From the NCBI RefSeq assembly GCF_024054555.1, contig NZ_JAMXLY010000005.1, positions 1 through 64,000 of the forward strand: a DNA stretch of 64,000 nucleotides. Reading direction: 5' to 3'. Below, piece after piece: positions 7,857 through 17,619 of this stretch (position 1 is its first letter; each line of letters begins with the position of its first letter). A model generated the notes under the pieces. It saw only the letters and a list, made by a program, of their open reading frames with translations. It did no database searches and was not told the origin of the DNA. The DNA comes from Segatella cerevisiae (GTDB lineage Bacteria; Bacteroidota; Bacteroidia; Bacteroidales; Bacteroidaceae). The position numbers and the translations under genes are program-made.

Positions 7857-8651
7857 ATGAAGCAAGCATTCGCTATCATTATGCTATGCCTTCCTCTGTC
7901 CATGGAGGCTAAGGCTGTCGAGGTGTGTAAACCGTTATTGGAAAACACGGAATGGCGTTCTTCAAATGATACTGTAAGAACCCAAGACGGAACAAACAAT
8001 TCTGATTGGACCATTCCTGACCAACAGAACAACCAGACCAGTTCTTCTTCTCAGAAGTCCAGCAAAAAAGCGCCCGAGAAAAAACCGGTCAAGCAACAGC
8101 TACCCGTCAAACTGAAAGAGGATCCCAAATATCTTTCGGGAGCTGTACCGACAGACAAGAAGGGAAAAGTGGTATTCACTTTGGATGAAAATATACCCGG
8201 ACGCAGCAAGAAAGAAATTTATGATTCCGTATACCAATATTTGAATCAACTGACTAAAGGGAAAGACGAGTTGGAAGGCAGTCGTGTAGCTTTGGTGAGC
8301 AACAGCAAAGGGATCATAGCCGCTACCGTCAGAGAATGGATGGTTTTCAGAAACACCTTTATCTCTTTGGATCGGACAAAGTTTCTGTATACGATCATTG
8401 CCAAATGCAGTGACAATCACTTGCACATGACGCTCAGCCGGATCAGTTATAGTTATGAAGAAGGCCGCCCCGGAGGTTTCAATGCCCCTGCAGAAGAGAT
8501 CATTTCAGATAAATATGCCCTGACCAAGAAAAAGAATGATTTAGCCAGAATGTACGGCAAATTCAGGAAAGGAACGATTGACCGGAAAGACGAGATTTTC
8601 AAGCAAGTCACCGCTATGTTCCAGGAAAAGGAAGAACAGAAAAGTGAATAA
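7857..8651 (+). CDS. Secreted DUF4468-domain protein
   Basis: A 264-residue protein with an N-terminal signal sequence (about 1-20, MKQAFAIIMLCLPLSMEAKA). A low-complexity linker follows, rich in S, Q, N and K (about residues 40-85). The C-terminal two thirds match the Bacteroidota DUF4468 pattern: IPGRSKKEIYDSVYQYLNQL, then VREWMVFRNTFISLDRTKFLYTIIAKCSDNHLHMTL, and a basic helical tail. These proteins have an unknown function in the envelope. The two genes behind it (a two-helix membrane protein and a putative porin) follow at 26 bp and then with a 4-bp overlap, so they form one transcription unit and may act together at the cell envelope. Confidence 0.75.
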   Translation: MKQAFAIIMLCLPLSMEAKAVEVCKPLLENTEWRSSNDTVRTQDGTNNSDWTIPDQQNNQTSSSSQKSSKKAPEKKPVKQQLPVKLKEDPKYLSGAVPTDKKGKVVFTLDENIPGRSKKEIYDSVYQYLNQLTKGKDELEGSRVALVSNSKGIIAATVREWMVFRNTFISLDRTKFLYTIIAKCSDNHLHMTLSRISYSYEEGRPGGFNAPAEEIISDKYALTKKKNDLARMYGKFRKGTIDRKDEIFKQVTAMFQEKEEQKSE

Positions 8652-8677
8652 CCCATTAAGAACTAAGGATTCATAAT

Positions 8678-8920
8678 ATGGAAAATCCCAATCAAGAGCA
8701 GAACCAGTTCAAACACCTGCGGAGACTCAAACCCATCCGGGAAGACAGGACACCTTTGTTCAAATTCAGGAATATCCTGAATATCATCTTCATGATCCTT
8801 GCAGTTGTGGGAGTTTGCTTCTATCTCTTCAGCCATATGAAGACCTTTGCCATTATCCTGATGCTTGCGGCTGTGGCCGTGAAATTTATTGAAGTCTTAC
8901 TTCGACTCTTTCATAAATGA
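8678..8920 (+). CDS. Small two-helix membrane protein
   Basis: An 80-residue protein. A basic N-terminal part of about 30 residues precedes two hydrophobic helices: about 33-49 (IIFMILAVVGVCFYLF) and about 53-75 (TFAIILMLAAVAVKFIEVLL). Its stop overlaps the start of the porin gene by 4 bp (ATGA at 8917-8920), a typical sign of translational coupling. I do not recognise a named family. It likely sits in the inner membrane next to the porin pathway, but its role is unknown. Confidence 0.75.
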   Translation: MENPNQEQNQFKHLRRLKPIREDRTPLFKFRNILNIIFMILAVVGVCFYLFSHMKTFAIILMLAAVAVKFIEVLLRLFHK

Positions 8921-14108: not shown

Positions 14109-14553
14109 GAAATAAACTTTTGTCACTGCAATCCGTCTAATTAGCATCTGAACAGAAAGATTGAAATGGAGAAGAGTGATAAAATAAAGCCTAATGAACA
14201 GCGGGGGAATTATTGTTGAAGATAGTTCCAGCCGTATTGCAGGGGCAACAAACTGTCTCTGCCTGAAAAGTGGATTGTATCTCAGGCAGGTAGATTCAGC
14301 ATGTACTGCTTCCTTGCTCTTAGTCATCATTCAGGAGTTACGCTCTTATATAACCCTACCGGTAAAAAGATGGAAACCGGATATTTCCAAGAACTTCATT
14401 TTCAAAGCAAGACTATTTTTCGGATACCTTCCTGAAAGAATAAGGGATGTACCGACTCGAGGGATATGCTTATACAGTAGAAATAATTTAAAGAGGCAAC
14501 AAATTGCCTTCTGAGTGAAACGATTAATATTTTCAATTAAAATATACAGATTC
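14109..14553 (+). other. Non-coding stretch with inverted repeats before the LytTR gene
   Basis: No supported gene lies here. A 106-codon open frame (14194-14514) and a minus-strand frame across it show no family features. The stretch has an 8-bp perfect inverted repeat CTGCCTGA/TCAGGCAG (14259-14266 and 14282-14289) and a tight hairpin AGGCAA/TTGCCT (14494-14509) 44 bp before the LytTR start. These could be regulatory or belong to an unrecognised RNA. I saw no full promoter consensus. Confidence 0.4.
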
Positions 14554-14919
14554 ATGAAGAAAGAGACACAAACAAAGCAAGAAGTGATCAGTAAAGACCG
14601 TTTCTTTTTTGTCAACAGTGAATACAAAACTGTACAAATCAAATTTGACGAAATCCTATACGTTATGGGACAGAAAGACTATGTAAAATTCTTCCTGAAG
14701 AATAACCGTCAACCAGTAGTTTGCCTAATGAATATGAAGAGACTGGATGAATTCCTTCCTAATCCTGAGTTCATGCGTGTACATCGTTCCTATATTGTGC
14801 ACATGCCTTCTATCCCAATGATAGACCGATTCAGAATTAAGTTCGGTGAAACTTATATTCCTATCTCAGATACCTATAAGACAGCTATTCAAAATTATAT
14901 CAAATTACACTCTCTTTAA
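14554..14919 (+). CDS. Stand-alone LytTR-type DNA-binding regulator
   Basis: A 121-residue protein from the ATG at 14554 (MKKETQTKQEVISKDRFFF). A start at 14515 is less likely. Almost the whole chain is a LytTR DNA-binding domain: FFVNSEYKTVQIKFDEILYVMGQKDYVKFFL, then MKRLDEFLPNPEFMRVHRSYIVHM, and IPISDTYKTAIQNYI. There is no receiver domain in front, unlike LytR/AlgR response regulators, and no adjacent histidine kinase. Single-domain LytTR proteins are common in Bacteroidota, but their targets are mostly unknown. A very strong terminator follows. Confidence 0.85.
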   Translation: MKKETQTKQEVISKDRFFFVNSEYKTVQIKFDEILYVMGQKDYVKFFLKNNRQPVVCLMNMKRLDEFLPNPEFMRVHRSYIVHMPSIPMIDRFRIKFGETYIPISDTYKTAIQNYIKLHSL

Positions 14920-14941
14920 AGATAAGAGAGGGTTATGAAAT

Positions 14942-15000
14942 CCTCTGCTATCAGCATTTTCTCTTTAGAAAAATGCTGTAGCAGAGGTAGATTTCTTTTT
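14942..15000. terminator. Very strong, probably bidirectional terminator
   Basis: CCTCTGCTA (14942-14950) pairs with TAGCAGAGG (14979-14987), and CAGCATTTTC (14952-14961) with the strand 14968-14978, a stem of about 19 bp with one bulge. A T-rich tail (14993-15000) follows on the plus strand. It separates the plus-strand LytTR gene from the convergent CBM20-HAD gene, whose stop is at 15003. Confidence 0.85.
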
Positions 15001-15002
15001 CC

Positions 15003-16469
15003 TTAGAAAATTTCTTCAGGAGACTCCACTAAATGGGAGGCACCGTGCGTGAGGAGGAATTCACGATTGCGAAATCCCCAAAGCACACTAATACAAGGCA
15101 TCTTGCAGTTTTTCGCCGTCATGATGTCCACATCACTGTCACCGATATAAACGGCACCGGAACGCGTACACTTCAATTGCCTCAAAGCTTCGAGAACCGT
15201 ATCAGGAGCCGGTTTTTTGTGAATGTTTTCCCGCTCGCCTATTGCGACCTTCACCTGTGGGAAAAAGTGGCGGCAAAGTTCCTGGGTAGCCGTATAGAAT
15301 TTGTTGCTCACGACTGCAACGTTTTTCCCGTTCTTAGATAATCTGTTCAGCATCTCGGGAATGCCGGGATAAGGTTGGGTCGTATCCAGGCTATGGACAA
15401 GATAATGCTTGCGGAAAGTCTGATAGGTAGAATCAAACTTCGGGTTCTGCAATCCCCCGGGTATTGCCCGTTCCATAAGTTTCTTCACCCCGTTGCCAAC
15501 AAATCTGCGCACCTCGTCCACTGTCCTTTCCGGCATTCCGGCAGTGCGGAGGGCATAATTACAACTTGCGGCCAGATCCCGGAGGGTATTCAGCAGAGTG
15601 CCGTCAAGATCAAAAATATAAGTATCATAGGTTTGCAGCCAACTGAAGTTCCGGACTTTGACAGGCATTTGGCTGAAAGCCTCCATCACTCTTTCAGGTT
15701 GATCTGTTTCCACTGTGATACGCGCTTTCAAGGATTTATTCTTGACGCGCAGCAAACTGTCATCCAGGACCAATACCGTGTTATCCTTTAGCCGATCTAA
15801 TCCGACAGTCCTGTTCTCGTCTGTCTCCCACTGCTTGAGTTGATGAGTTTCATCATCTATGACCACATACTTGTATTCCAAAGAAGTACTTACAGCAAAC
15901 ACGTCCACGCTCAGGCTCCACACCCGTTGGTCAATGCGTTTCATGAGCAGATACCTCTGTTTGTTCCAATTGCCCAAGACCGGATGATTCCCGCAGATTG
16001 CAACAGATTCACCCTTTTCCAGATTCGGTGCAATGACGCGGAAGATGACCGTACGGGCATATACGGCCATATTGAGATGAGGGAGCAGCTGGCTCAAATC
16101 CAGTGATCCCAAGTTTCCTGTATCTGAAGTTCCGGCATCACCAAGACAAGGATAAGGCTCATCCTGCCAGGAATCCAGAAAAGCATAATCTTTCATAGGA
16201 TGATAAACATAGAGTCTTGGGCATTGGGTCCACTCTTTCCGCAATACATTTCCCTTCTCATCCTCTATCTGATACCAATAATACATGTATGCAGCAGCAG
16301 GTTGAAGAAAATCTACAACGTGAGTCTCCAAAGTCCATAAATACCCATCATTTGTCTGCAGAGGCAAATTCTCCTTACTTTGGCGTCCTTTGTCACTGAT
16401 GTAGTTCAGCACCAAATGTACAGACTGTCCCCATGCCGTATGATAAATAATATTAAACTCTAATTTCAT
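15003..16469 (-). CDS. Two CBM20-like domains fused to a HAD-family phosphatase
   Basis: A 488-residue protein. Residues about 1-100 (MKLEFNIIYHTAWGQSVHL) and about 138-240 (VIFRVIAPN, CGNHPVLGNWN, LEYKYVVID) resemble the two N-terminal CBM20 starch-binding domains of Bacteroidota 4-alpha-glucanotransferase MalQ. Instead of the GH77 catalytic domain, a linker (about 243-280) leads into a complete HAD phosphatase (282-488) of phosphoglycolate-phosphatase type: motif I FDLDGTLL (nucleophile D287, D289), motif II Ser in VVSNK (388), motif III Lys in HKKPAPD (about 418), motif IV GDSDVD (443-448). There is no signal peptide, so it is cytoplasmic. The reaction is phosphoester hydrolysis; a sugar phosphate tied to glycogen or maltodextrin metabolism is plausible inference. 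Confidence 0.82.
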   Translation of the reverse strand: MKLEFNIIYHTAWGQSVHLVLNYISDKGRQSKENLPLQTNDGYLWTLETHVVDFLQPAAAYMYYWYQIEDEKGNVLRKEWTQCPRLYVYHPMKDYAFLDSWQDEPYPCLGDAGTSDTGNLGSLDLSQLLPHLNMAVYARTVIFRVIAPNLEKGESVAICGNHPVLGNWNKQRYLLMKRIDQRVWSLSVDVFAVSTSLEYKYVVIDDETHQLKQWETDENRTVGLDRLKDNTVLVLDDSLLRVKNKSLKARITVETDQPERVMEAFSQMPVKVRNFSWLQTYDTYIFDLDGTLLNTLRDLAASCNYALRTAGMPERTVDEVRRFVGNGVKKLMERAIPGGLQNPKFDSTYQTFRKHYLVHSLDTTQPYPGIPEMLNRLSKNGKNVAVVSNKFYTATQELCRHFFPQVKVAIGERENIHKKPAPDTVLEALRQLKCTRSGAVYIGDSDVDIMTAKNCKMPCISVLWGFRNREFLLTHGASHLVESPEEIF

Positions 16470-16486: not shown

Positions 16487-16494
16487 CAAAGGTA
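16487..16494 (-). promoter_or_regulatory. -7 element for the CBM20-HAD gene
   Basis: On the minus strand this reads TACCTTTG, matching TAnnTTTG. It lies 17 bp upstream of the ATG, so the leader is very short. It is arranged back to back with the mltG promoter 44 bp away. Confidence 0.65.
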
Positions 16495-16560: not shown

Positions 16561-17619
16561 ATGAGAAAAATGAAACATCAGACTTGTAAAAAGTATGTTA
16601 TTGCCATTGCGACATGTTTAGTAGTGATAATGGGAATAGTGTATTACTATTTCTTTTCTTCTTTTTCTGTAAAATCAGAAACATCGTATATTTACATTGA
16701 CCAAGACGATAGTATCGACTCTGTATACAATAAACTCAAACCTATTGCCAACGGTCATAGTTTTTTTGCCTTCCGTACACTCGTACGGCACTTTGATTAT
16801 GCCAAGCATATCCGGACCGGTCGCTATGCCATCACCAAAGGGGAAGGTGCCCTCACCCTCTTCAGACATTTGAGAAATGGCCAACAGACTCCTGTCGACT
16901 TGACCATCCCGTCTGCTGTGAGAACTTTAGGCGACTTGTCTTATGACATCAGCAAGAAATTGATGCTGGATGAAGAGCAACTCTATGATTCACTTACCAA
17001 TGAACAGTTGTGTCGGCAGTACGGTTATGATACGACTACCATTGCCTGTATGTTCATCCCCAACACCTATGATATCTATTGGGACATCAGTATTCCGAAA
17101 TTCCTGGACAGAATGCAGAAAGAAAGCAAGAAATTCTGGAATTTCGAACGTCGGAAAAAGGCTGAAGCAATGGGCTTCACTCCCATCCAGGTAATTACCC
17201 TCGCCAGTATAGTAGACTCCGAGACCAACAACGACGCGGAAAAACCGATGATTGCCGGTCTATACTATAACCGTCTGAAAGTCCGGAATGCGAAATATCC
17301 TGATGGAATGCCGTTACAGTCAGACCCTACCATCAAGTTTGCTTGGAAAAGATTCGACTTGAAGCGTATCTATAACAATCTTCTCTATATCCACAGTCCG
17401 TACAACACCTATAAGAATCCGGGACTGCCACCAGGACCGATCTGCATACCTTCCGTTGCGGGAATCGATGCCGTCCTCAACTATGTCCATCACGATTATC
17501 TCTATATGTGCGCGAAGGAAGACTTCAGCGGTACCCATAATTTTGCCCGCACCTATGCCGAGCATATGAAGAACGCTGCAAAATATACCAAAGCTTTGAA
17601 TGAAAGGGGTATCAAATAA
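16561..17619 (+). CDS. mltG: Endolytic murein transglycosylase MltG
   Basis: A 352-residue inner-membrane protein with one N-terminal transmembrane helix (about 12-32, YVIAIATCLVVIMGIVYYYF) and a periplasmic YceG/MltG domain. Typical motifs are IDQDDSIDSVYNKL (LysM-like part), LASIVDSETNNDAEKPMIAGLYYNRL containing the catalytic Glu, LQSDPTIKFAWKRFD, and SPYNTYKNPGLPPGPI near the C-terminus. The family cleaves nascent glycan strands and is thought to set peptidoglycan chain ends. The second ATG at 16570 is an alternative start given the nearby promoter. A clear terminator follows. Confidence 0.93.
   Translation: MRKMKHQTCKKYVIAIATCLVVIMGIVYYYFFSSFSVKSETSYIYIDQDDSIDSVYNKLKPIANGHSFFAFRTLVRHFDYAKHIRTGRYAITKGEGALTLFRHLRNGQQTPVDLTIPSAVRTLGDLSYDISKKLMLDEEQLYDSLTNEQLCRQYGYDTTTIACMFIPNTYDIYWDISIPKFLDRMQKESKKFWNFERRKKAEAMGFTPIQVITLASIVDSETNNDAEKPMIAGLYYNRLKVRNAKYPDGMPLQSDPTIKFAWKRFDLKRIYNNLLYIHSPYNTYKNPGLPPGPICIPSVAGIDAVLNYVHHDYLYMCAKEDFSGTHNFARTYAEHMKNAAKYTKALNERGIK

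Follow-up and report, generated by a model that had tools for sequence, protein, structure and literature searches.

A bacterial fusion of tandem CBM20 modules with a HAD phosphatase, derived from a MalQ-type gene that lost its GH77 domain

The window analysed here, a 64,000-nucleotide stretch of Segatella cerevisiae contig NZ_JAMXLY010000005.1, encodes a 488-aa protein in which two starch-binding modules (CBM20) are joined to a HAD phosphatase domain. Intermediates in relatives showed that this fusion originated from a MalQ-type gene, and the CBM20 pair was shown to be under purifying selection after loss of the GH77 domain (omega 0.065-0.21). The protein is tentatively read, with a chance just short of even, as a HAD phosphatase tethered to alpha-glucan and formed when GH77 was excised; we infer its glucan binding, phosphatase activity, substrate class and a single purpose for both halves of the fusion. 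Its parts are of known kinds; as far as searched, their combination and the erosion series are undescribed.

Architecture of the fusion gene

15003..16469, minus strand: CBM20-CBM20-HAD fusion gene, 488 aa (ORF, Pfam and comparison with the MalQ of the same genome)
16155..16469, minus strand: CBM20-1, residues 1-105 (model, Foldseek best match 1cqy, homology to the MalQ front)
15804..16058, minus strand: CBM20-2, residues 138-222 (Pfam CBM_20, motif positions, model)
15624..15803, minus strand: linker, residues 223-282 (mostly low confidence in the model; like the linker of the Prevotella AGR2160 fusion)
15009..15623, minus strand: HAD phosphatase domain with C1 helical cap, residues 283-487 (Pfam, motifs, model)
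16487..16494, minus strand: putative Bacteroidota -7 promoter box TACCTTTG (consensus match only)
14930..15010, no strand assigned: strong hairpin between convergent gene ends (minus strand folded, -31.2 kcal/mol, z -6.75)

The frame at 15003-16469 (minus strand) was found to be intact, as the preliminary description had stated, running from an ATG to a stop codon over 488 aa with no internal stop. Pfam searches of the protein matched CBM_20 at residues 141-222 (E 2.2e-16; 59.8 bits versus a cut-off of 23.3) and HAD_2 at residues 284-462 (E 8.6e-35), and yielded no match to GH77 (PF02446) and no dual-specificity phosphatase (DSP) family. The protein, being devoid of GH77, is therefore not a MalQ, and it is not a laforin either, as its phosphatase belongs to a different superfamily. 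The proposed layout of a MalQ-like tandem CBM20 front, followed by a complete four-motif HAD phosphatase in place of GH77, was thus borne out by Pfam, by motif positions and by the fold search and own-MalQ comparison described below.

The full-length AlphaFold2 model consisted of two beta-domains (residues 1-105 and 138-222) and a confidently predicted HAD domain (283-487), connected by low-confidence joints at 106-132, 230-254 (all but one residue) and 273-276. The pTM of this model was 0.49, and the relative placement of the CBM20 and HAD halves is not fixed.

The -7 box (TAnnTTTG, presumably the Bacteroidota -7 motif) ends 17 bases 5' of the ATG, and a second match to TAnnTTTG is located inside the fusion gene at 16420-16413 (minus strand). 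The hairpin is likely a two-way terminator, judging from its predicted folding; it was not among the matches of a simple terminator consensus scan. Both elements are consistent with the earlier suggestion that the gene possesses its own promoter and terminator.

The CBM20 front

Searched alone, residues 1-105 matched no Pfam family at E<=1, and a PDB sequence search with the same residues gave no significant match (best E 0.33). Their AlphaFold2 model (pLDDT 88.4) exhibited the beta-sandwich fold of a starch-binding domain, with the starch-binding domain of B. cereus beta-amylase (1cqy) as best PDB match in Foldseek (probability 1.00, TM 0.60, E 1.2e-4). All eight matches at E<=0.001 were beta-amylase and glucoamylase entries, which we take to be CBM20 carriers, and the CBM20 of human GPCPD1 (2z0b) ranked ninth (E 1.6e-3). 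The possibility that CBM20-1 is a non-CBM20 domain was rejected: the sequence searches were insignificant, yet the fold search was clear. The structural comparison of the front with CBM20, which had been proposed beforehand, thus identified a starch-binding fold.

CBM20-2 carries LGNW (165-168), EYKY (198-201) and WETDENR (214-220), corresponding to what we assume to be the site-aromatic signature of CBM20 (LGxW / EYKY / WE..NR); the LGxW part is absent from the sequence of CBM20-1. Over residues 1-247, the protein was 30% identical to the front of the MalQ encoded by the same genome (E 3.5e-20). Alpha-glucan binding by the CBM20 pair is putative. For plant DPE2, the available text reports that CBM20-1 binds glucan and that CBM20-2 does not (PMC3789958); since the canonical site of the fusion resides in CBM20-2 and CBM20-1 lacks LGxW, either module may be the one that binds here.

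The HAD phosphatase half

The HAD half displays all four motifs of HAD subfamily I (DxDGT, S/T, K and GDxxxD), as FDLDGT (286-291), VVSNK (386-390), KKPAP (418-422) and GDSDVD (443-448). Strict motif patterns were matched by 65 of the 72 HAD domains included in the tree described below; the seven misses, among them the fused protein of locus L193, all concern motif III, and one also concerns motif IV. In the model, helices at 295-359 lie between motifs I and II, giving a Rossmann core with a helical cap, and the PDB matches of this half are presumably HADs of the C1 cap class. The closest solved structure was 2hi0 (35% identity; Foldseek E 7e-22; phmmer E 1.1e-38). Small molecules are the usual substrates of C1-capped HADs, and the modelled cap suggests a small substrate.

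The cut-offs of the NCBIfam equivalogs for phosphoglycolate phosphatase (124.2 versus 225 bits and 113 versus 180 bits) and beta-phosphoglucomutase (30.9 versus 189.4 bits) were missed. Identity as a phosphoglycolate phosphatase was rejected, as the scores are far under the equivalog cut-off; the HAD of locus L077 likewise scored 133.1 versus 225 bits.

Erosion of GH77 in relatives

Relatives encode a second MalQ-type protein with CBM20-CBM20-GH77 architecture, designated here as MalQ2, often directly upstream of a stand-alone HAD orthologue. MalQ2 is about 35-48% identical to the fusion over the front, and is closer kin to it than the MalQ of the same genome. The front was detected at E<=1e-30 in 133 of 299 congeneric genomes (window genome included), which were sorted by open-frame length, with the 19 short frames besides that of the window being checked on sequence. 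Frames of 791-1107 aa were present in 113 of the 133 genomes, among them a weak match in G123 that may be an ordinary MalQ. GH77 was internally deleted in seven (G002, G079, G118, G161, G190, G203 and G236), the two CBM20 modules alone overlapped the HAD start in two (G062 and G101), the gene was split into two frames in two (G216 and G281), and it ran into a contig end or into masked bases in four (G013, G127, G172 and G247).

Among 37 non-redundant pairs of unfused MalQ2 and HAD genes, 14 had a stop/start overlap of exactly 4 bases when start codons were assigned mechanically. The GH77 catalytic triad was complete in 20 of 21 distinct full-length MalQ2 proteins (17 by pattern, L038 by a wider pattern, and L040 and L122 by alignment, L122 having AENIG for AEDLG). 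In the full-length MalQ2 of L049 (7346-9970), all three catalytic residues are changed (D to E, E to D and D to A), indicative of a probably dead enzyme. Shortened MalQ2 forms of 520-627 aa, in which most of the GH77 barrel is deleted and the frame is open, adjoin HAD and are conserved pseudo-amylomaltases:

L036, 8336-9898: deleted-GH77 MalQ2
L037, 8407-9990: deleted-GH77 MalQ2
L043, 8337-9899: deleted-GH77 MalQ2
L089, 8408-9997: deleted-GH77 MalQ2
L084, L099, L106 and L196: further deleted-GH77 MalQ2 forms

In Hallella mizrahii and two close relatives, a frame of 264-271 aa encoding only the two CBM20 modules ends 26 bases inside the HAD gene, in another frame. This CBM20-only frame is an unfused intermediate with low omega:

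L088, 9983-11393: CBM20-CBM20 frame overlapping HAD
L090, 6667-8077: CBM20-CBM20 frame overlapping HAD
L091, 9962-11393: CBM20-CBM20 frame overlapping HAD

Relatives thus display full MalQ2 with HAD, a dead triad, deleted GH77, a CBM20-only frame overlapping HAD, and the fusion. Furthermore, the linker of the L193 fusion retains the first strand-helix of GH77 (LxxLVxWAxxxGLRV). When compared with 16 MalQ2 proteins, always with the same stretch matched, its score was reached by 0 of 200 shuffles for eight of them and by 1-11 of 200 for the other eight. The GH77 start within this linker provides direct evidence for the excision of GH77 from a MalQ2-HAD pair; in the linker of the window protein, no GH77 remnant was recognised by linker comparison.

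Distribution of the fusion and number of joining events

The CBM20-CBM20-HAD architecture was identified in five of 299 congeneric genomes, that of the window counted (G000, G011, G066, G069 and G233), G069 being a single-contig genome, and in a whole-protein search these five fusions also ranked high among the matches listed. It was also present in the named-strain records Prevotella AGR2160 and Segatella copri Indica. Restriction of the fusion to the window sequence was accordingly rejected. The preliminary description had coupled two circumstances that would speak against it, of which the existence of relatives with two separate genes was found, whereas limitation of the fusion to this sequence was not. 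An assembly artefact, which that description had regarded as not obvious, can be dismissed on the same grounds. The window genome is in 116 contigs and its nearest relative has a separate HAD, as might be expected from an assembly or sequencing error or from a pseudogene in decay, but the recurrence of the architecture in the five genomes (one single-contig) and in named strains, together with the low omega of both halves between fused relatives, leaves this explanation with a practically negligible probability.

The linkers of six fusions were of three kinds, differing in length and sequence: those of the window and L033/L034, which are alike, the short linkers of L035/L192, and that of L193. 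The score between the window and AGR2160 linkers was reached by a fraction of 0.001 of shuffles, so these two probably share one event. In a tree of 72 HAD domains (IQ-TREE, 209 columns, LG+G4), the six fused rows required four changes, of which well-supported branches force only one, and 212 of 500 shuffles of the labels gave a number as low, i.e. there was no excess clustering. AU tests gave p 0.0695 for all six fusions as one clade (not rejected, with a log-likelihood 72.9 lower), p 0.114 for the five fusions without L193, p 0.23 for window+L033+L034 and p 0.156 for window+L035+L192. A single origin of all fusions, with losses, was thus not formally rejected; separate joining events, at least two and probably three, are proposed on the ground of the three linker kinds and not of the tree. 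The nearest row to the window is L077, whose HAD is 81% identical and whose locus lacks CBM20 (the front was sought by tblastn and not found); CBM20 loss in the L077 line is likely.

Selection on the modules

Pairwise omega values (NG86) between the fused genes of L033 and L034 were 0.105 for CBM20-1, 0.089 for CBM20-2 and 0.072 for HAD; those between L035 and L192 were 0.145, 0.205 and 0.068, respectively, with saturated dS. The CBM20-only pairs of Hallella gave 0.065-0.085, while the GH77 remnants gave 0.15 in L036/L043 (dS 2.0) and 0.16 in L084/L099 (dS 1.3). The window gene was compared only with the distant fusion L033, at saturated dS. The CBM20-2 site pattern was intact in all six fused and all 21 full-length MalQ2 proteins, in six of seven CBM20-only or cut forms, and in 40 of 44 part-GH77 proteins, the latter including proteins cut by a locus end. 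Low omega and an intact site pattern indicate that the front is kept for a use and is not decaying.

HAD orthologues and alpha-glucan genes

A HAD orthologue was matched at E<=1e-35 in 212 of 251 genomes of the family, nearly all of the matches listed covering the HAD part, and was rare in a sample of the phylum (five of 395 genomes at E<=1e-40). In 57 of 121 non-redundant HAD loci, which are not a random sample and of which ten are not Prevotella, no MalQ-type gene stands beside HAD, and in 18 more none was present within short flanks; the phosphatase therefore does not need the modules. Moreover, HAD orthologues were found at the C-terminus of other upstream proteins:

L215, 2949-4547: ketopantoate reductase-HAD fusion (PanE)
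L216, 3083-4669: ketopantoate reductase-HAD fusion (PanE), in a second genome
L217, 2507-4018, minus strand: RNase III-HAD fusion (171.5 bits versus an equivalog cut-off of 166.25)
L219, 2531-6160: PEP-synthase-like-HAD fusion (PPDK_N domain)
L103, 9005-10699: DHH-HAD fusion, Agathobacter

These partners share no common theme with alpha-glucans. As HAD orthologues are fused to four unrelated kinds of protein, fusion by itself says little about a common function, and the functional case in Prevotella consequently rests on the retained CBM20 pair. Long open frames upstream of HAD in L213 (2690-4012, minus strand) and L214 (3064-4386, minus strand) represent a trap for automatic fusion calls; this candidate of 440 aa was dropped, as its added stretch is arginine/proline-rich and probably an out-of-frame reading, with no match for L213 in NCBIfam at E<=0.01 or in Pfam at E<=0.001.

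Exactly one other GH77 gene was retained in each of the seven fused or CBM20-only genomes examined, and an alpha-glucan phosphorylase in six of the seven, indicating that alpha-glucan is handled in these genomes. The single GH77 match of the window genome is on contig C34, away from the fusion, and both glycogen synthase and phosphorylase are present. A possible link between retention of the front and glycogen synthesis was considered through the GT3 glycogen synthase, which was matched in 257 of 299 congeneric genomes. In the single-contig, fusion-bearing genome G069 no GT3 match was obtained, and in the CBM20-only genome G101 (88% complete) neither GT3 nor phosphorylase was matched, making maltodextrin a safer guess for the ligand than glycogen.

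Proposed function and alternative explanations

In the favoured scheme, the starting point would be the MalQ2 gene directly upstream of a small HAD gene in Prevotella, often with a 4-base stop/start overlap. GH77 would have been lost repeatedly, the two starch-binding modules being kept and joined to the phosphatase, either in a single frame, as in the window gene, or by overlapping frames, as in Hallella mizrahii. The most likely anchor of the enzyme, through its CBM20 pair, would be alpha-glucan in the cytoplasm, i.e. imported maltodextrin or, where it is made, glycogen. At this site the C1-capped HAD would hydrolyse a small phospho-compound, for instance a sugar phosphate or the terminus of a maltodextrin bearing phosphate, through the phospho-aspartate chemistry typical of HADs. 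Against such a tethered phosphatase stand the fusion of orthologous HADs to four other kinds of protein, the 57 of 121 HAD loci without an adjoining MalQ-type gene, the CBM20-less L077, the missing GT3 match in G069 and missing GT3 and phosphorylase matches in G101, the unclustered distribution of fusions on the HAD tree (212 of 500 shuffles as low) and the pTM of 0.49. Some of these observations fit a rival explanation, in which a housekeeping HAD of the phosphoglycolate-phosphatase type is repeatedly joined to any upstream gene because its translation is thereby coupled. The two halves would then perform separate tasks, or the CBM20 pair would survive simply as a leader that folds. The PanE, RNase III, PEP-synthase-like and DHH fusions, the family-wide occurrence of the HAD orthologue (212 of 251 genomes at E<=1e-35), its tight coupling to MalQ2 even when separate and the dispensability of the CBM20 part, as in L077, would all be accounted for. 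A useless leader should, however, decay or be lost, whereas the CBM20 pair is under strong purifying selection with its starch-site residues intact after GH77 loss, and is also kept unfused in Hallella; we regard this explanation as somewhat unlikely.

More specific roles were also weighed against the tethered phosphatase. The HAD could be a bacterial counterpart of laforin, dephosphorylating phosphorylated glycogen or phosphodextrins from imported starch, with the CBM20 pair presenting the chain. C1-capped HADs are usually small-molecule enzymes, a rule that would apply here through the modelled fold, and many Prevotella HAD orthologues have no adjoining CBM20 partner. On the other side, the HAD is linked to the glucan-acting MalQ2 in many species, and the plan of CBM20 plus phosphatase is that of laforin, as given in the available text of PMC2714694. 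Phosphate monoesters can occur on both starch and glycogen, where they reduce the affinity of branching enzymes for their substrate, but the same source, in its available part, treats the phosphorylation of bacterial glycogen as open (PMC13011383). On balance, the laforin-like role is judged unlikely. The joint claim that Prevotella evolved, more than once, a glucan phosphatase with the job of laforin and an unrelated fold, through removal of the catalytic domain from a surplus amylomaltase, and that phosphorylated glycogen or phosphodextrins of dietary starch are its substrate, appears quite improbable. Alternatively, glucan binding by CBM20 might open or close the HAD site, such that a central phospho-metabolite is hydrolysed according to the level of the carbon store. 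In AMPK beta, a related starch-binding module acts as a glucan sensor, and the long flexible linker between CBM20-2 and HAD is compatible with such a role, but linker length and sequence vary among the fusions and the two halves are not confidently placed (pTM 0.49), rendering a sensor very unlikely.

Relation to known proteins

Laforin resembles the fusion in that an N-terminal CBM20 is joined to a phosphatase in a protein that, like the fusion, is likely cytoplasmic; it differs in being eukaryotic, with a Cys-based DSP and one CBM20, compared with the HAD (Asp nucleophile) and two CBM20 of the bacterial fusion. Human GPCPD1 similarly combines CBM20 with a phospho-ester hydrolase (glycerophosphodiester phosphodiesterase), although its catalytic domain and chemistry are unrelated to those of the HAD. 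The closest structural relative of the HAD half, 2hi0, a putative phosphoglycolate phosphatase of Lactobacillus delbrueckii, lacks CBM20, and its own substrate is only predicted. The tandem CBM20 front is homologous to that of the MalQ-type proteins of these genomes, whose CBM20-CBM20-GH77 plan is described for plant DPE2 in the available text of PMC3789958; in the fusion, by contrast, GH77 is wholly missing and a phosphatase is present instead.

According to the available text of a survey (PMC2714694), no bacterial or archaeal protein combined a phosphatase domain with a carbohydrate-binding one, and a glucan phosphatase was therefore judged unlikely in bacteria. The fusion is a bacterial protein of the kind that this part of the survey reports as absent, and the steps of its origin are preserved in living relatives. 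In a literature search covering titles and abstract beginnings of open-licence papers, no CBM20-HAD protein was described. Hallella mizrahii, a named strain, carries the unfused intermediate. Irrespective of what the phosphatase acts on, the locus bears on whether a starch-binding pair takes on a new role once its enzyme is lost, and on whether phosphate chemistry occurs on, or is drawn to, the alpha-glucans of Bacteroidota. Should the two halves turn out to be unrelated, the locus would be a clear example of fusions recurring with no common function, and a caution for 'Rosetta stone' inference.

Genomic setting

16561..17619, plus strand: mltG (YceG family), divergent neighbour and landmark of the slot (Pfam, synteny)
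14515..14919, plus strand: small LytTR-domain protein, convergent neighbour (Pfam, synteny; this position is shared by a number of relatives)

The fusion gene occupies a recurrent slot, in which mltG is followed by MalQ2/HAD in any state and then by LytTR and/or a lumazine-binding, riboflavin-synthase-type gene. Of 84 non-redundant loci at least 5 kb long, the window not counted, 54 had a divergent mltG no more than 3 kb away. Among the fusions, those of the window, L035 and L192 reside in this slot, L033 and L034 are at other places, and that of L193 has no mltG in the 2.6 kb examined upstream. With 54 of 84 loci and the positions of L033 and L034, mltG synteny was rejected as a universal rule. 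In L094, a 269-aa gene encoding only two CBM20 modules (7969-8778, minus strand) is located across mltG, apart from the stand-alone HAD. The LytTR-domain protein, which adjoins HAD in a number of relatives, has no receiver domain among its Pfam matches. Elsewhere in the window, positions 33150-58523 encompass a probable xylan utilisation locus, comprising two GH43, GH10, an esterase and GH95, together with two SusD and TonB-dependent partners and a hybrid two-component regulator.
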